Assembly: GCA_958295695.1 (NCBI GenBank)
Contig: OY282363.1
Coordinates: forward strand, 2,484,225-2,548,224
Direction of reading: 5' to 3'
DNA from: an uncultured Alphaproteobacteria bacterium
GTDB lineage: Bacteria; Pseudomonadota; Alphaproteobacteria; SP197
DNA length: 64,000 bases
Position 1 is the stretch's first letter; each line of letters begins with the position of its first letter. This document shows, one piece after another, positions 29,340 through 64,000 of this stretch. Under the pieces are notes generated by a model, which ran no database searches, was not told the origin of the DNA, and worked only from the letters and a program-made list of their open reading frames with translations. The translations under genes and the position numbers were made by a program.

Positions 29340-29730
29340 GGGGATCGGGCGGCCTGTAAGCCGGGTTCTGTGACCGGCCGCGCGGGCCGGACGATGGCCA
29401 TTCGTCTGGGACGCCCGTCGCCGGACGCCTCGCGCGATCAACCCGGGCGGCTGGGCCGGGAACGGGCCCTGCCGGGGCGCGCCGCCCCTATTCGATCTTG
29501 CTCCCGGTGGGGTTTGCCCTGCCGCGTCCGTCGCCGGCCGCGCGGTGCGCTCTTGCCGCACCCTTTCACCCTTGCCTCCGGGCGGGCCCGAAGGCGGTTT
29601 GCTTTCTGTGGCACTTTCCCTGGGGTCGCCCCCGCCGGGCGTTACCCGGCACCGTGTTCCCGTGGAGCCCGGACTTTCCTCCCGCCGGCGCTACCGCGCC
29701 GGCGCGCGGCCATCCGGCCGCCCGATCCCC
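29340..29730 (-). ncRNA. rnpB: RNase P RNA, type A
   Basis: Catalytic RNA for tRNA 5' maturation. The minus strand carries the universal 5' box GAGGAAAGTCCGGGCTCC (around 29669-29687) and the 3' box ACAGAACCCGGCTTACAGGCC (around 29351-29372), plus the internal AGGGAAAGTGCCACAGAAA. The P1 helix is a 15-bp perfect pairing of 29716-29730 with 29340-29354, which defines the ends and a length of about 391 nt. rnpB next to mraZ is usual in alphaproteobacteria. Its first ~40 nt overlap the 3' end of the amidase gene. Confidence 0.95.
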
Positions 29731-51136: not shown

Positions 51137-51236
51137 AGCCCGCGACGGCCTTGGCGTCGGGCGACGATGTGCTGCTGTTCGGCGCGGGTCCGGTAGCTTT
51201 CCGCGCGATGGGTCGATGATCGTGGGAGGGCGCCGG

Positions 51237-52751
51237 ATGACGGGGGCCGCGAGAATGTGCATGAAGCCCGATAGATGGCGTCGAGGCCGGCTCGCCAGCA
51301 GCGCCGCCCTGCTGGCGTTCGCGCTCGCGGCCTCCCCGTCCTGGGCGGGCGGCTGCGACGACTGGAACACGGCGAGTTTCTTCCGTCTCTATACGGCGGA
51401 CGAGGTGCGCGACTGCCTGGCCGCCGGCGCCGATCCCATGGCGAGGGACGACAAGGGTTTCATGCCGCTTCACATGGCGGCGGTAGTGGCCGGCCGGGAC
51501 GCCGTCGCGGCCCTGCTGGCCGCCGGCGCCGATCCGAACGCGCGGGCCCATGACGGCATGACGCCGCTTCATGGGGCGGCGATCATGTTGGGCGATCCCG
51601 TCACCGCCGCGGCGTTGCTCGACGGCGGCGCCGACCCGAACGCGCGGGCCGCCGGCGGTCTGACGCCTCTTCACATGATGGCGGCGTATGCGGAAGACGT
51701 CTCCCCGGTCATGGAGCTGATGTCGGACTGGCTGCCCGACTGGGCGGGGGACTGGCTGCCCGATCGGGCGGGGGCGTCCCCGCGCGGTCCGGCCCTCGTC
51801 GTCGTGCTGGTGGAGGCGGGCGCCGATCCGAACGCGCGGGACGAAGAGGGCTGGACGCCGCTCCACTATGCGCCGGGGTTCGCGCCCGCCGCCGTCGTCT
51901 CGGCGCTGGTGGAAAGCGGGGCCGATCCGAACGCGCGGGATGTGGACGGCGATACGCCACTCCACACCGGGGCGGTGTTGGCGCAGAACTCCGCCATGGT
52001 CGAGGCCTTGCTGGAGGCCGGGGCCGATCCGGACGCGCGCGGCGACAAGGGCGGGACTCCGCTTTACTGGGCGGCGGCCCACAACGACAATCCCGCCGTG
52101 ATCGTCGCGCTCGTCGAGGCCGGGTCGGACCCGATGGCGCGAGCGGACGGTGGCTCGACGCCGCTTCATGCGGCGGCGGCCCACAACGACAATCCCGCCG
52201 TGATCGTCGCGCTCGTCGAGGCCGGGGCCGATCCGGACGCACGCGGCGACAAGGGCGGGACTCCGCTTCACTGGGCGGCGGTGAAGAACAGCAATCCCGC
52301 CACGGTCGTCGCGCTCGTCGAGGCCGGGGCCGATCCCATGGCGCGCGCGGATGTTGGTCTAACGCCGCTCCATATGTCGGCCGCGCGGGGGACCGACCCT
52401 GCCGTCGCCATGGCGCTGCTGGAGGCCGGGGCGGACCCGATGGCGCGGGCGGATGCCGATCTGACGCCGCTTCATATGGCGGCGATACGCGCGACCGATC
52501 CGGCCGTCGCCATGGCGTTGTTGAATGCCGGCGCCGATCCCATGGCGCGAGCGGACGGTGGCTCGACGCCGCTTCATGCGGCGGCGATGCATGCGACCGA
52601 TCCCGCCGTCGCCATGGCGCTGCTGGAGGCCGGCGCCGATCCCGAAATTCGGGACGACGAGGGCAAGACCGCATGGGACCTGATCCAGGACAACGCCACT
52701 CTCCGCGACACGGCGGTCTACGAGCGGTTGCGCGCCCTGGCGGGGGAGTGA
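51237..52751 (+). CDS. large secreted ankyrin-repeat protein (copy 2)
   Basis: 504 residues, closely related to the protein at 48755. The first ~70 residues are almost identical (Ser to Asp in GGCDDWNTASFF). Eleven ankyrin units follow; the insertion SDWLPDWAGDWLPDRAGASP is kept in unit 3. Units in the middle (DKGGTPLYWAAAHNDNPAVI, DGGSTPLHAAAAHNDNPAVI, DKGGTPLHWAAVKNSNPATV) are near copies of one another and of units in copy 1, suggesting shuffling within and between the two genes. The C-terminus is shared with copy 1. Same ribosome site and start context. Confidence 0.88.
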   Translation: MTGAARMCMKPDRWRRGRLASSAALLAFALAASPSWAGGCDDWNTASFFRLYTADEVRDCLAAGADPMARDDKGFMPLHMAAVVAGRDAVAALLAAGADPNARAHDGMTPLHGAAIMLGDPVTAAALLDGGADPNARAAGGLTPLHMMAAYAEDVSPVMELMSDWLPDWAGDWLPDRAGASPRGPALVVVLVEAGADPNARDEEGWTPLHYAPGFAPAAVVSALVESGADPNARDVDGDTPLHTGAVLAQNSAMVEALLEAGADPDARGDKGGTPLYWAAAHNDNPAVIVALVEAGSDPMARADGGSTPLHAAAAHNDNPAVIVALVEAGADPDARGDKGGTPLHWAAVKNSNPATVVALVEAGADPMARADVGLTPLHMSAARGTDPAVAMALLEAGADPMARADADLTPLHMAAIRATDPAVAMALLNAGADPMARADGGSTPLHAAAMHATDPAVAMALLEAGADPEIRDDEGKTAWDLIQDNATLRDTAVYERLRALAGE

Positions 52752-57645: not shown

Positions 57646-58305
57646 TCAGCCGCGCAGGGCGGCGATGTTGGCGGCATAGCCCGCCGGGCCGTCCTTGAAG
57701 ACGGCGGTGCCGGCGACCAGCACGTCGGCGCCCGCCTCGACCGCGCGGCGCGCGGTCTCGGGCGTGATCCCGCCGTCGACCTCGAGGTCGATCGCGCGCC
57801 CGGAGCCGTCGATCATGGCGCGCAGCTCGGCGATCTTCCGCGGCGTGTCCTCGATGAAGTCCTGTCCGCCGAAGCCCGGGTTGACGCTCATGACGAGGAC
57901 CAGGTCGACGAGGTCCATGACGTGCGCGACGGCGCCGGCGGGCGTGCGCGGATTGAGCGAGACGCCGGCCCTGAGGCCGGCCTCCTTGATCGCCCGCAGG
58001 GTCCGGTGGACGCGGGTCGCGGCCTCGACATGGACCGTGACGATGTCGCTGCCGGCTTCGACGAAGGCGGCCAGCAGCGGATCGACCGGCCGGATCATCA
58101 GGTGCACGTCGAAGGGCTTGGCGCTGTGGGGCTTCATCCTCGCGATCGCGGGCGGGCCCAGCGTCAGGTTCGGCACGAAGTGGCCGTCCATCACGTCGAT
58201 GTGGATGTAGTCGCAGCCGGCCCGGTCGATGGCGCGGATTTCCTCGCCCAGCCTCGCGAGGTCGGCGGAGAGAAGGGAGGGAGCGATGCGGACCGGCTGC
58301 TGCAC
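57646..58305 (-). CDS. rpe: ribulose-phosphate 3-epimerase
   Basis: TIM-barrel enzyme of the pentose phosphate pathway interconverting ribulose-5-P and xylulose-5-P. Motifs: IAPSLLSADLARLGEEI, YIHIDVMDGHFVPNLTLGP (metal His/Asp), FDVHLMI, MSVNPGFGGQDFIEDT and LEVDGGITPETA. I take GTG 58305 because homologues begin just before IAPS; the frame extends to a TTG at 58341. 219 residues from GTG. Neither start has a clear ribosome site. A 10-bp hairpin (58343-58369) separates it from the divergent cas13a. Confidence 0.95.
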   Translation of the reverse strand: MQQPVRIAPSLLSADLARLGEEIRAIDRAGCDYIHIDVMDGHFVPNLTLGPPAIARMKPHSAKPFDVHLMIRPVDPLLAAFVEAGSDIVTVHVEAATRVHRTLRAIKEAGLRAGVSLNPRTPAGAVAHVMDLVDLVLVMSVNPGFGGQDFIEDTPRKIAELRAMIDGSGRAIDLEVDGGITPETARRAVEAGADVLVAGTAVFKDGPAGYAANIAALRG

Positions 58306-58439
58306 GGGCGGTGGCGTAACAGGTTCCGGGCCTCGCCTCAACGCCGGACGGCGATTCGGGCCGTCCGGCGCTTGTCCGACGCCGGCCGGGCCACCACATG
58401 TGCAACCGTCCCGGCGCGGACCGGGCGAGGAGTTTCCCC

Positions 58440-61400
58440 ATGCGCATCGTCAAACCCCATGGCCGGACGGAGACGGCGCCGAACGCGGAAGGCCGTCCGA
58501 AGCGCCGGATCCACCGGCATCCGGGAGACGGCGACGTCAGGGACATCGAGGCGTTCGCGGCGGAGCATCCCGAACTGGTCCTCGCGCAATGGGTGTCGGC
58601 CATCGACAAGATCGCCGCCAAGCCGCGCGGGAGCGCGAAGCCGACGCGGGAACAGCGCGACTTGCGCGACAAGCTCGGCGAGGCCGCCTGGGACGCGCTG
58701 AAGCGCCGGCTCCCGCTCGACCGGCTGGACGAACTCGAAACGCTGTGGCGGCGGAAAATCCACCCCTACGGCGAGGACGTGGACAAGGAGCGGAGCGGCC
58801 GGGCGAAAGGCCGCTGGTACGGGCGCTTCGCGGGGAAGGACGGCCCCGGCGCCGTCGACGCCGCCGGCGTCGCCCGGAAGATCGAAGAGCACTTGCACGA
58901 CAAGGAATACCGCATCGGCGGCGGACGGCCGGACAGGCGCGAGGGCCGGATCGCCGCGCGGGCCGCCAGCATCGCCGGCAATGTCGTCACACCCGTCGAC
59001 CGGCTTCCGAGGGCCGCATGGACGGACGACGACCGCGAACGCTACCGGAAAGCGGGCGACGTGGCGGCGGAGATACGGCGCGAGGCGGAAGCGCTGGAAG
59101 CGGGCGAACGCCGCGTCGGCCCGAGGGTCGCCGCCGAGGCGCTCCATGCGCATTACGCGAAGCTGTTTCCAGGCGAGGACGGCAAGGCGCTCTCCATCGC
59201 CGAGGCCGGGAACCGAGCGCCCGGCCCGTTCGCCCTGCACATGGCCGTGCGCGGCGCCTATTCGCGCATCCTGAAGAACCACGGCAAGGACCGGAAGGAG
59301 CACGGAGACAGGAGGAGGCCCGTCTCCGGGCTGCTGCCGGCGGACATGGACGCGCTGTTCCGGCTTGTCGAGGCGATGGGGCGCAACCGCGACCTCAACG
59401 CGCTGGTCCGGCTGGGCAAGCTGATCCACTACGAAGCCGCGCCGGTCCCGAACATGGAGACCGCGGCCGGGGACGAGCCGGAGCACGCCATCGACCGCTG
59501 GCCGGACGAAACGAAGATCGAGCGCGGCCGTTACCGGACTTCGGCGGGGCAGTCGGACATCAAGCGCAACGAGGCGTTCGTGCGCGTCTGGCGCGGCGCG
59601 GTCGCGCTGGCCCAGCGGACGCTGACGGACTGGGCGGACCCGGACGGCAAGATCGACCGTGATATTTTCCTGGGCAGGTCGATCAAGGAAGCGGTTGGGA
59701 AGAGTTTCGACGAAGACGCCCATACCGCCAAGCTGCGGGTCCTGTTCGGCGGCCGGGCGCGGCTGTTCGACGAGAAGGCCGATGGAAGGAACGTGCTGGG
59801 CTTCGCGCTGACGGGCTGGGCCAGGTTGCGCAACGGGTCCTTCCACTTCAAGGGGCGCGGCGGCTTCGCCCGCGCCCTGAAGCTCGGGGCCGAGGACAAG
59901 GACGTGGACGAGCGGGTTCTCGAAGCGGCCCGCGAGCTCCTCGAAACAGACCGGAACGAGCGTCACGGCCGTCTGGTCGAAGCCTTGCGCGCCGCCCATG
60001 TCGAGTTCTGTTACGGCCGGAAGCAGCTCGGGGCGCTGTTCGACGCTCTCGTGCGCGGGGCGCCGGCGCGACCGCCCCTGCCGCGCTTCCGCCGCGTGCT
60101 CGACCGGGCGAAGAAGGCGTGGCGCCTCGACAAGCGATACAGACTCCGGCTGCCGGACCCCGAAAACCGGCCGACTCTGGAAGCGAATCCCGGTCGGCTG
60201 TGCCGCTCCATCGTCCTCAAGACTCTCTACGAACGCGCCTTTCCCGCTTGGCTCGAGGCGCGGGACGCCGCGGCGTTCAACGGCTGGATCGCCCGTGCTG
60301 TCGAACGCGCGACCGAGGCGGCGCGCGAGATCAACAAGGACCCGGACGCCGCCGCCAGGGCCGCCGGTCTTGTCCGCCTGAAGGACGGCGAGGGAATCGC
60401 GGCCTTCGCGGACCGGCTGACCGCCCTGACGGCGACCGAATACCGCGTCCAGCGCGGCTACGCGAGCGACGCCGACAACGCGCGCAAGCAGGCGGGTCAT
60501 ATCGAGAAGCTTCGATGCGACGTGGTGGCGCAGGCGTTCGAGGCGTATCTGGAGGCCGAAGGTCTCGACTGGACGCTGGAAGACCCGGCCGACGGGCCGC
60601 TTCCCGAGGAGAAGAAAGCCGATCTGGGCGCGATCGCCGCGCCGCCGGCGAACGGCGACGAACCGGAGGACTGGCGGGCCGCGCTCTATGTCCTCCTCCA
60701 CACGGTCCCGGTGGAGACGGCCGGGCGGCTACGCCATCAGCTTCGCAAATGGGCGGTCCTCGAAGGCAAGGCGCGGACCGAGGCGCCGTCGGCGGAAGCG
60801 CGGGCGGTCGAGGACCTGCTCGACCTCTATCTCGACATGCACGACGCCAAGTTCGAGGGCGGCGGGGGCGTCGCCGGGGCCGAGGCGCTGGCCGGGCTGT
60901 TCGAGAACCGCGCCGTCTTCCGCCGGGCCTGCCCGGTCGAGCCCGGCGCGGCGGCGAACCGCCATGTGCCTTGGCGCGGCCTGCGGGAGATGCTGCGCTT
61001 CGGCGCCGGCGAACCGCGGCTCAAGCCGGTCTTCGAGAGTCGTCCTATCGCCGCCACGAAGGTGGACGAACTGGAGCGCTTGGAGACCGTGCAGGACGAC
61101 GGCGGCGTTTCGCCCATCGCCGCGGCGCAGGCGCGGCGCGAGGACCTGCACGCGACATGGGCGAAGAAAAAGCGGCTGTCACCGGACGACCTGACGGCTT
61201 ACCGCGCCGCGCTCGACACGGTGATCCGGCACCGGCATCTGGCGGCCCATGTCCGTCTCGTCAACCACGCCAAGCTGCACCGGCTGGCGATGGATGTGCT
61301 CGGCCGTCTGGCCGACTACGCCGGCCTGTGGGAGCGCGACCTCTACTTCGCGACCCTGGCGCTCGTTCGGCTGGAGGGAAAGACGCCGGAGAGCGTTTTC

Positions 61401-62255
61401 TCGGAGAAGGACCTCGGCGACCTGAAGAACGGCCAAATAATCCAAGCGCTCCGGATCGACGCGAAGAAGAGCGGCGAAGGCGAATCCGCAGCCAAACACG
61501 CTATCAAGGAGGAATTGCGAAAGCTGTTCGGCCAGGATTTTCTGGGCGATACCGGCGCCGCTGGCGTACGCAACCGTCTGGCTCATTTCAGGATGCTCCG
61601 GGGTCGGGAGAACAAGCCGTTCGACCTGACCGGAGCGGTCAACGACGCACGCCGGCTGATGGCTTACGACCGCAAGCTGAAGAACGCGGTCTCCCGGTCG
61701 ATCGTCGAACTGCTCGCCCGCGAGGGGCTCGACCTCGCCTGGGACATGCGGGACCACGAACTCACCCGCGCGACGGTGGCCTCCCGGCGGGCCGTCCATC
61801 TGGGCGGCGTGAAGATCGACAAAGAGAAAATCGTCGAGGACCTGCACGGCGAACCCTTCGTCGCCATGGCGGCGGCGCTCTTCGGCGGCGAGGCGCGCGG
61901 AGCGGCGCGGAAAGGCGGGCCGCCGGACCGGGGCCGGCCGGCGCCGGGCTCTCCGCCGCCGCGGCCGGCCGTCTTGCCCGTTGCGGGCCAGCGGGTGCGG
62001 GCGGTGCTGATCGACGAGAAGACGAAACGGGGCGGCTGGAAGGCCGAGACGGTGGGGACAACGCGGGTCGTCGGCCACATCCTCAACTCGGACGAGGTTC
62101 CGCCCGACGCCGGGCCCGGACTGGAAGAGGAGCTTGTCGTGAAGGTCTCCAATCCGGCGAACGCCAGTTTCGAGTGGCCGTCGCCAGCCGTGGAGGCGCG
62201 GCTGGCGAAGCCGGCGGCCCGTCGCGAAGGACGGCCGAAGGGCAGACGGCGGTGA
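58440..62255 (+). CDS. cas13a: CRISPR-associated RNA-guided ribonuclease Cas13a (C2c2), type VI-A
   Basis: 1271 residues. Cas13a processes its own crRNA and, on binding complementary RNA, activates a composite HEPN nuclease. Both HEPN motifs are present: R464-N-G-S-F-H469 and R1044-N-R-L-A-H1049, spaced as in the family. From memory, blocks match the Rhodobacter capsulatus protein of 1285 residues: QWVSAIDKI, GRWYG, TSAGQSDIK, YASDADNARKQAGHIEKL, AMDVLGRLADYAGLWERD and MAYDRKLKNAVSRSIVELLA. After HEPN2 comes a Pro/Gly/Arg-rich linker (about 1155-1177) and a C-terminal OB-like domain (about 1178-1250) ending in a basic tail. ATG 58440 has GCGAGGAG upstream; an in-frame ATG at 58398 adds 14 residues without similarity. 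The CRISPR array follows 126 nt downstream on the same strand. No cas1/cas2 nearby. Confidence 0.95.
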   Translation: MRIVKPHGRTETAPNAEGRPKRRIHRHPGDGDVRDIEAFAAEHPELVLAQWVSAIDKIAAKPRGSAKPTREQRDLRDKLGEAAWDALKRRLPLDRLDELETLWRRKIHPYGEDVDKERSGRAKGRWYGRFAGKDGPGAVDAAGVARKIEEHLHDKEYRIGGGRPDRREGRIAARAASIAGNVVTPVDRLPRAAWTDDDRERYRKAGDVAAEIRREAEALEAGERRVGPRVAAEALHAHYAKLFPGEDGKALSIAEAGNRAPGPFALHMAVRGAYSRILKNHGKDRKEHGDRRRPVSGLLPADMDALFRLVEAMGRNRDLNALVRLGKLIHYEAAPVPNMETAAGDEPEHAIDRWPDETKIERGRYRTSAGQSDIKRNEAFVRVWRGAVALAQRTLTDWADPDGKIDRDIFLGRSIKEAVGKSFDEDAHTAKLRVLFGGRARLFDEKADGRNVLGFALTGWARLRNGSFHFKGRGGFARALKLGAEDKDVDERVLEAARELLETDRNERHGRLVEALRAAHVEFCYGRKQLGALFDALVRGAPARPPLPRFRRVLDRAKKAWRLDKRYRLRLPDPENRPTLEANPGRLCRSIVLKTLYERAFPAWLEARDAAAFNGWIARAVERATEAAREINKDPDAAARAAGLVRLKDGEGIAAFADRLTALTATEYRVQRGYASDADNARKQAGHIEKLRCDVVAQAFEAYLEAEGLDWTLEDPADGPLPEEKKADLGAIAAPPANGDEPEDWRAALYVLLHTVPVETAGRLRHQLRKWAVLEGKARTEAPSAEARAVEDLLDLYLDMHDAKFEGGGGVAGAEALAGLFENRAVFRRACPVEPGAAANRHVPWRGLREMLRFGAGEPRLKPVFESRPIAATKVDELERLETVQDDGGVSPIAAAQARREDLHATWAKKKRLSPDDLTAYRAALDTVIRHRHLAAHVRLVNHAKLHRLAMDVLGRLADYAGLWERDLYFATLALVRLEGKTPESVFSEKDLGDLKNGQIIQALRIDAKKSGEGESAAKHAIKEELRKLFGQDFLGDTGAAGVRNRLAHFRMLRGRENKPFDLTGAVNDARRLMAYDRKLKNAVSRSIVELLAREGLDLAWDMRDHELTRATVASRRAVHLGGVKIDKEKIVEDLHGEPFVAMAAALFGGEARGAARKGGPPDRGRPAPGSPPPRPAVLPVAGQRVRAVLIDEKTKRGGWKAETVGTTRVVGHILNSDEVPPDAGPGLEEELVVKVSNPANASFEWPSPAVEARLAKPAARREGRPKGRRR

Positions 62256-62381
62256 CGGGGGCGAAGAGCGAACGGAAGCCGGAAAACGGCGCGAACCGGA
62301 CGCCGCGCCGTTCCGACCCGCCGGTTTCCACCGGCGCGGCGAACGAATTCTTGCCGTGGCCTGCCGGTTTGCGCTAAAGGT
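62256..62381 (+). promoter_or_regulatory. CRISPR leader region
   Basis: 126 nt between the cas13a stop and the first repeat, on the leader side as judged from the degenerate last repeat. A weak promoter candidate is TTGCCG (62351) and CTAAAG (62374) with a 17-nt spacer, but it would start inside repeat 1. Transcription from cas13a into the array is equally possible. No AT-rich leader typical of other types is seen. Confidence 0.4.
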
Positions 62382-63275
62382 AGCGAACATCACCCCCACA
62401 TGAAGGGGGACTGCACCCGCCCATGATGGCGGCAACGAGGCTCGGCGAGCGAACATCACCCCCACATGAAGGGGGACTGCACCGGTGCTTGAAACGACTT
62501 CAAGTTCCAGCCCAGCGAACATCACCCCCACATGAAGGGGGACTGCACCGGGAATCGTAACGGACCCGCGCCGGTTTTCAGCGAACATCACCCCCACATG
62601 AAGGGGGACTGCACCCGGCGTCCAGGACGAGCCGCTCGCTGTCGCAGCGAACATCACCCCCACATGAAGGGGGACTGCACCGGCCACACCTCGCGCCACC
62701 CGTCGCGACAGAGCGAACATCACCCCCACATGAAGGGGGACTGCACCTAGGGAGCCTCCATTTTCATGTCCGGGGTCAGCGAACATCACCCCCACATGAA
62801 GGGGGACTGCACCAGCTCTCGCCATCGGTCCACTTCTCTTCGGAGCGAACATCACCCCCACATGAAGGGGGACTGCACCTCCCAGCACCTCGGAAAGCGG
62901 CAGGGCAACAGCGAACATCACCCCCACATGAAGGGGGACTGCACCAAAAGTGCTGCCAATACTCGCAGCTGTCGCAGCGAACATCACCCCCACATGAAGG
63001 GGGACTGCACCCAAGGGTTCGATGCGATGCCTGCAAGCCTGAGCGAACATCACCCCCACATGAAGGGGGACTGCACCAGCCGCGATGCCGATTCTGACGG
63101 GCGGGGGAGCGAACATCACCCCCACATGAAGGGGGACTGCACCGACATGGCGAGCCTCTAGAGTGGATCGCCGAGCGAACATCACCCCCACATGAAGGGG
63201 GACTGCACCCGATCCCAGCTACCCATCGCTTTGCGTAGTGGCGAACATCACCCTCACATGAAGGAGGGCGGCATC
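62382..63275 (+). CRISPR. type VI-A CRISPR array: 14 repeats of 36 nt, 13 spacers of 30 nt
   Basis: Repeats start every 66 nt from 62382 to 63240. The unit begins AGCGAACATCACCCCC, has the loop ACATGAA and ends GGGGGACTGCACC; C5/G5 pairing makes the 5-bp stem of Cas13a crRNAs, leaving an unpaired 5' flank (AGCGAACATCAC... part) and 3' ACTGCACC before the spacer. Repeats 1-13 are identical. The 14th (63240-63275) has several substitutions (GGCGAACATCACCCTCACAT, then GAAGGAGGGCGGCATC), marking the distal end. All 13 spacers are exactly 30 nt and unique; several (2, 6, 7, 9) are visibly less GC-rich than the genome. Orientation follows cas13a, giving crRNAs with the repeat 5' of the spacer. Confidence 0.98.
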
Positions 63276-63370
63276 TCCGTTCCCCGCCGTGCTCGCCGCG
63301 AGGCTCTCGCCGGGTTGTCCCTGGCTGCGCGGGCCCGAGATCCGGCGATTCGGAGGCCCGGCGCCGTCGG

Positions 63371-64000
63371 TCAGCCGTCCCGCCCGAGGCGCATGGCGAA
63401 GAAGCCGTCCATGCCGCCCTCGCCGGCCATGTGGCAGGGCAGCGTGCGCAGGCGACCGGAGCGGTCGACGGCCTCCCCGAACCCGCCGATCTCGGCGGCG
63501 GCGACCGGAACCGGGCGGATGTCGGCGTGGCGCTCCAGGACGCGCGCGAACTGGGCTTCGCCCTCCTCGGGCTGGAGCGAGCAGACCGCGTAGACGAGCA
63601 CGCCGCCGGGCTTCAGGCAGGCGATCGCGTTGTCGATCGTGCGCGCCTGGAGCCGGGCGAGCCTCGCCGGATCGTCCGGCCGTTTCGTCCAGGCGATGTC
63701 GGGATGGCGGCGGATCGCGCCGGTGCCGCTGCACGGCGCGTCGAGCAGGACCGCGTCGGCCGGATCGTCCGGCCGCCAGGCCGTCGCGTCGGCCACGACG
63801 GTCTCCACGGCGAAGCCGAGCCTCGCCATGTTCGCCGTCAGCCGCCCGAGGCGGCGTTCCGAGAGGTCGACGGCGGTGACCCGCGCGCCGGCGGCGGCGA
63901 GTTGGGCGGTCTTGCCGCCCGGCGCGGCGCACAGGTCGACGACCCGCTTGCCCGCGACATCGCCCAGGAGCCTCGCGGGCAGCGAGGCCGCCGCGTCCTG
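63371..64000 (-). CDS. rsmB: 16S rRNA m5C methyltransferase RsmB-like (3' part; runs off the window)
   Basis: The last 210 residues of an RsmB/NOP-family methyltransferase; the start lies beyond position 64000. SAM-binding motif VVDLCAAPGGKTAQLAAAGA, catalytic motifs DAPCSGTGAIRRHPDI and AVCSLQPEEGE (the two conserved Cys) and the C-terminal GGMDGFFAMRLGRDG are present. The NusB-like N-terminal domain that distinguishes RsmB is outside the window, so RsmF-type or other NOP enzymes remain possible; the link with rpe favours RsmB. It ends 95 nt after the CRISPR array on the opposite strand. Confidence 0.88.
   Translation of the reverse strand, partial: QDAAASLPARLLGDVAGKRVVDLCAAPGGKTAQLAAAGARVTAVDLSERRLGRLTANMARLGFAVETVVADATAWRPDDPADAVLLDAPCSGTGAIRRHPDIAWTKRPDDPARLARLQARTIDNAIACLKPGGVLVYAVCSLQPEEGEAQFARVLERHADIRPVPVAAAEIGGFGEAVDRSGRLRTLPCHMAGEGGMDGFFAMRLGRDG

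Follow-up and report, generated by a model that had tools for sequence, protein, structure and literature searches.

An intact type VI-A cas13a gene and guide array between rpe and rsmB in an alphaproteobacterial genome

The window, the whole stretch of 64,000 nucleotides that was analyzed, contains a cas13a gene and a CRISPR array that separate rpe from rsmB and run on the strand opposite to both. The features discussed here are given below in window coordinates, except for the last, which is situated elsewhere in the same genome.

57646..58305, minus strand: rpe, the left neighbor, which adjoins rsmB in relatives
58440..62255, plus strand: cas13a, type VI-A effector of 1271 aa (NCBIfam, PADLOC, phmmer, Foldseek)
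59829..59846, plus strand: HEPN1 motif RNGSFH (residues 464–469, with R464 and H469), Arg and His identical in 10 relatives
61569..61586, plus strand: HEPN2 motif RNRLAH (residues 1044–1049, with R1044 and H1049), Arg and His identical in 10 relatives
61671..61757, plus strand: predicted pre-crRNA-processing residues R1078, N1082, and H1106, from alignment to RcCas13a
61950..62252, plus strand: C-terminal extension, residues 1171–1271 (~100 aa), absent from compared relatives
62256..62381, plus strand: leader-side intergenic region of 126 nt; the repeats next to it are perfect and the degenerate one is at the far end
62382..63275, plus strand: CRISPR array of 14 repeats of 36 nt and 13 spacers of 30 nt
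63240..63275, plus strand: degenerate terminal (14th) repeat with 6 mismatches, trailer end
63371..64000, minus strand: rsmB (16S rRNA m5C methyltransferase), the right neighbor, which runs beyond the window
G000:C1:231725-238600: type II-C locus (L021, L022) with an anti-repeat-like sequence, cas9, cas1, cas2, and an array

The window also contains a bacterial RNase P class A RNA (29341-29725, minus strand) and a 511-aa open frame (51216-52751) that by eye has near-identical ankyrin-type repeat units and a signal-like N terminus.

The open reading frame of cas13a (58440-62255, plus strand) is intact and encodes 1271 residues, as the original prediction had it, with the stop codon ending at 62255. 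The ATG start at 58440 is backed by an alignment of relatives, in which all homologues begin with M[RLK][IV][IV][KR]PYG. The label "compact" suits the locus, which is one gene plus an array, but not the protein, which is full-sized. Of the checks that the original prediction had named, the profile searches place the protein inside Cas13, and the predicted fold agrees. Residues 1–1148 match the NCBIfam cas13A equivalog NF038188 over the whole profile (1–1192 of 1192) with 747.5 bits, far above the cut-off of 150, and the PADLOC profile Cas13a gives 6e-204. In a phmmer search of the Protein Data Bank, the top match is Rhodobacter capsulatus Cas13a (RcCas13a; 7os0) at 6e-104, and the remaining matches are mainly chains named Cas13a. 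An AlphaFold model of residues 1–1175, built with nine relatives, has a pLDDT of 76 and a pTM of 0.67. Foldseek finds 7os0 as the closest structure to this model (E 1.3e-47, TM-score 0.74/0.77); there are 18 matches at E<=0.001, in which 7os0 is followed by other Cas13a structures and then by Cas13d.

The two R-N-x3-H motifs are found where they were predicted, at R464/H469 and R1044/H1049, and are invariant in the 10 relatives. Because the modeled fold matches Cas13a, one would expect the two motifs to come together in a single composite site; RcCas13a itself adopts an open state until it binds its target (PMC8776769). Residues R1078, N1082, and H1106 align with R1085, N1089, and H1113, on which pre-crRNA processing by R. 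capsulatus Cas13a depends (PMC8776769), and are invariant in the ten relatives compared. By profile, fold, catalytic and processing residues, and array, the window protein is a type VI-A Cas13a.

The first repeat of the array starts at 62382, so that the gap to cas13a is exactly 126 nt. Both this distance and the number of 14 repeats on the same strand agree with the original prediction, with the addition that the last repeat is degenerate. Thirteen identical 36-nt repeats (AGCGAACATCACCCCCACATGAAGGGGGACTGCACC) are separated by spacers that are all exactly 30 nt (13/13), and thirteen perfect 36-mers at a constant spacing of 66 nt cannot have arisen by chance. The VI-A repeat is confined to this array, with 14 forward sites in the 3.45-Mb genome and 0 for a control pattern. 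The degenerate repeat lies at the far end, which puts the leader, and hence the most recent spacers, at the end near cas13a; a scan of the 126-nt leader-side region gave no match to the sigma-70 promoter consensus. The repeat folds into the predicted Cas13a-type hairpin, CCCCC-ACATGAA-GGGGG, with a 5-bp stem and a 7-nt loop. Among 8 distinct repeats from related loci, the stem is paired in 100% of cells, and compensatory changes are present: two of the five pairs are changed on both sides, with both-side changes in 5 cells. The covariation score of the hairpin was reached by none of 500 shuffles, and slid structures fail as well. The mean spacer GC of 64% is below the 71% of the window, a difference that is consistent with foreign DNA but is no proof of it. 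Comparison of the array with phage and plasmid collections (E up to 10) and with the 16 family genomes, and of 20-mers of six spacers with IMG/VR, gave no credible protospacer.

One scan of GTDB genomes yielded eleven loci with related Cas13a proteins, and IMG/VR yielded four more. In a placement tree that excludes L027, L028, and RcCas13a fragments, which have very long branches, the window Cas13a forms a clade, supported at 100/100, with L001 (Nitrospirota) and with L003 and L008 (both Binatota). This clade sits inside a set that otherwise comes from alphaproteobacteria and viral contigs; L004, "Micavibrio sp. UBA6147", which belongs to the same set, is filed under Bdellovibrionota by taxonomy lookup. 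The window protein is 53–55% identical to L001, L003, and L008, 41–49% to the others aligned, and 29% to RcCas13a. Judged by sequence, it is divergent from RcCas13a, as predicted, yet not isolated; the nearest relatives found are from Nitrospirota and Binatota, not Rhodobacter. Nor is R. capsulatus, the one example in the original prediction, the sole alphaproteobacterium with Cas13a: several further genomes were retrieved, and a mostly alphaproteobacterial Cas13a clade has already been described (PMC6753606).

The Nitrospirota and Binatota loci, all from metagenome-assembled genomes, resemble the window locus in their effector and repeat. Their arrays, too, follow cas13a immediately and share its strand, with repeats of 36 nt and, for the most part, spacers of 30 nt. 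They differ in coming from other phyla and in lacking the ~100-aa C-terminal extension. RcCas13a (PMC8776769, PMC11089165) shares the fold, the HEPN residues, and the processing residues, but the R. capsulatus locus has cas1 and two arrays, of four and two spacers (PMC11089165). Among the other relatives, the G286 Cas13a is identical to that of locus L007 (Alphaproteobacteria bacterium), and G286 is rated as belonging to the same class as the genome of the window, which makes the host an alphaproteobacterium. In the plasmid collection, the best 16S match of the host is Tistrella, at 87.9%. Two named Rhodovulum species (L005 and L009) have identical Cas13a proteins but different array spacers. 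In Rhodomicrobium sp. Az07 (L010:5902-8911), the Cas13a coding sequence is divided between two frames, and the match ends around query residue 921; as this is near a contig end, the gene may be broken or the split may be an assembly-edge effect.

In all 14 family relatives where rpe was located, rsmB, rpe, and a heparinase-like gene (hep) are contiguous, with L041 covering only the rsmB-rpe part because its contig ends before hep. Cas13a is present in one of 16 family genomes and in 4 of 385 genomes sampled from the class. With a GC3 of 0.87, cas13a lies below rpe and hep (0.95). The split of rsmB from rpe, the rare occurrence, and the lower GC3 together indicate, on these genome comparisons, that cas13a and the array were gained as a horizontally acquired cassette. 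An 11-bp direct repeat, CGGCGATTCGG, flanks the insert at 58349-58359 and 63343-63353. A target-site duplication is not claimed, as such a repeat is near chance in GC-rich DNA and is absent from empty sites. Between rpe and cas13a there is also a perfect 11-bp inverted repeat, CGCCGGACGGC/GCCGTCCGGCG (58342-58370), with no T-run on either side.

The C terminus sets the window protein apart from its relatives. In the alignment, 121 residues follow column 1150 in the window Cas13a, against 0–55 in the ten relatives. The GC by codon position of the extension looks coding. The extension had no match in Pfam, NCBIfam, PADLOC, the Protein Data Bank, or plasmids, and no credible match in its own genome or in 398 phylum genomes; three weak genome matches were dismissed, as they overlap unrelated, mostly off-frame genes. 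A single-sequence AlphaFold prediction gives a few strands at low confidence (pLDDT 46.6). RcCas13a likewise extends past the common core at its C terminus, by about 120 aa that have been regarded as cold-shock-like (PMC8776769), but no sequence similarity between the two extensions was detected.

The whole is very probably best explained as a type VI-A effector and array with crRNA processing and RNA cleavage by the HEPN domains; the source of new spacers is weighed separately. The array would be transcribed in the direction of cas13a, and Cas13a would bind the repeat hairpin. By analogy with RcCas13a, R1078, N1082, and H1106 would cut the precursor 4–5 nt 5' of the stem, which would leave a 29–30-nt handle and yield crRNAs of about 59–66 nt. 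A crRNA would then pair with a phage or plasmid mRNA, upon which the two HEPN domains would form one site that, as in RcCas13a, cuts target and bystander RNA, so that growth halts. We infer processing, cleavage, and growth arrest from the function of RcCas13a (PMC8776769, PMC11089165); established at the locus itself are the integrity of the gene, its family membership and fold, the invariant residues, the covariation of the hairpin, and the insertion site.

Generic Rx4H motifs, of which several are present in the protein by chance, would also be expected of a HEPN protein outside Cas13 that lies beside an unrelated array. The probability of this is negligible: the protein matches Cas13a over its whole length in profile, in sequence, and in fold, and the array repeat is kept together with cas13a in relatives, which rules such a protein out. 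The origin of the spacers is less clear-cut. The cas13a locus has no cas1, cas2, or RT, its neighbors being rpe and rsmB, and the sole Cas1 of the genome, which is rated 100% complete, lies 2.3 Mb away in the complete type II-C locus. The II-C array consists of 31 36-nt repeats, and all its spacers but one, of 29 nt, are 30 nt long, which gives it the same 36+30 geometry as the VI-A array. Because the only cas1 is II-C and the geometry is the same, we lean towards a supply of spacers in trans by the II-C Cas1-Cas2, perhaps a common arrangement in this Cas13a clade. Such use of a II-C Cas1 has been proven for type VI-B in Flavobacterium columnare (PMC8092290), where an RNA-targeting effector likewise has no cas1 and a complete II-C system is present in the genome, and it has been proposed for Cas13an (PMC12165695). 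The F. columnare system differs in being VI-B rather than VI-A. Of the 11 alphaproteobacterial Cas13a carriers, 6 have a Cas9 above cut-off, against 55 of 381 other genomes of the class (Fisher p 0.003), but the carriers form a small set of related genomes that was sampled differently from the background. Geometry was rejected as proof of shared adaptation, as the VI-A arrays of L003 and L007 are also 36+30, and the search of these two genomes turned up neither cas1 nor cas9 of type II. The similarity of the leader-repeat junctions was set aside as too weak, being modest and over a length picked after the fact. Supply in trans is the weakest step of the mechanism.

The array could instead be frozen, the effector and spacers having arrived by horizontal transfer and no longer adapting, so that immunity is fixed or lacking. 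This is a real possibility, though we hold it to be improbable on balance. It accords with the missing adaptation genes, with the failure to find protospacers in phages, plasmids, family genomes, and IMG/VR, with the rarity of the effector in the family, and with the foreign-like GC3 of cas13a. On the other hand, all repeats but the terminal one are perfect and there are 13 different spacers, so there is no decay, and the genome does have a cas1-cas2 with a matching array geometry. A system of the type VI-A/RT1 kind of Rhodovulum, which would take spacers from RNA through an RT-Cas1 fusion, is suggested by kinship, as the window Cas13a appears to belong to the same broad, mostly alphaproteobacterial clade (PMC6753606). 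It is contradicted by the absence of RT-Cas1 from a genome rated as complete and is very improbable: the only Cas1 is that of the II-C locus, whose gene (306 aa) has no room for a fused RT, the window locus has no cas2, and the spacers are uniformly 30 nt compared with 30–49 nt in VI-A/RT systems (PMC6753606). Our preferred reading remains that the spacers probably come in trans from the II-C cas1-cas2.

Related effectors are also found on viral contigs. A 39.8-kb IMG/VR contig (UViG_2889914905_000002; L093:5001-9082) encodes a 1225-aa Cas13a that is 47% identical to the window protein and has a six-repeat array. It is situated inside a phage head cluster, with terminase, portal, and minor head protein upstream and head maturation protease and major head protein downstream. 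A search of the deposited phage collection gave no match, and the literature searched yielded no account of Cas13a in phages of this kind. A second contig of 38.4 kb (UViG_2886876212_000002; L095:1120-9986) encodes a distant Cas13a of 1379 aa (32% identity). Its gene immediately precedes those for portal, minor head, and head protease proteins, and no repeat array was detected within the 10.3 kb examined.

A broader picture, in which a mobile VI-A cassette lacking adaptation genes moves between phyla and on phages, drawing on the II-C Cas1-Cas2 of each genome that it enters, and in which the C-terminal extension has recently been acquired as an RNA-binding module, is speculative and rather unlikely to hold in full.

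The locus is a genuine, intact Cas13a and guide array, an added member of the known type VI-A. Its Cas13a is well preserved and comes from a lineage remote from the characterized enzymes, and its array is longer than both described R. capsulatus arrays. The C-terminal extension offers a starting point for work on accessory parts of Cas13a. Among type VI systems, acquisition in trans has been experimentally shown for VI-B (PMC8092290), and the clean empty site together with a single cas1 in a near-complete genome provides a test case for spacer acquisition by a system without its own cas1. The family is already known; it is the cross-phylum relatives, the clean insertion, the single II-C cas1, and the orphan extension that make this locus a useful test case.
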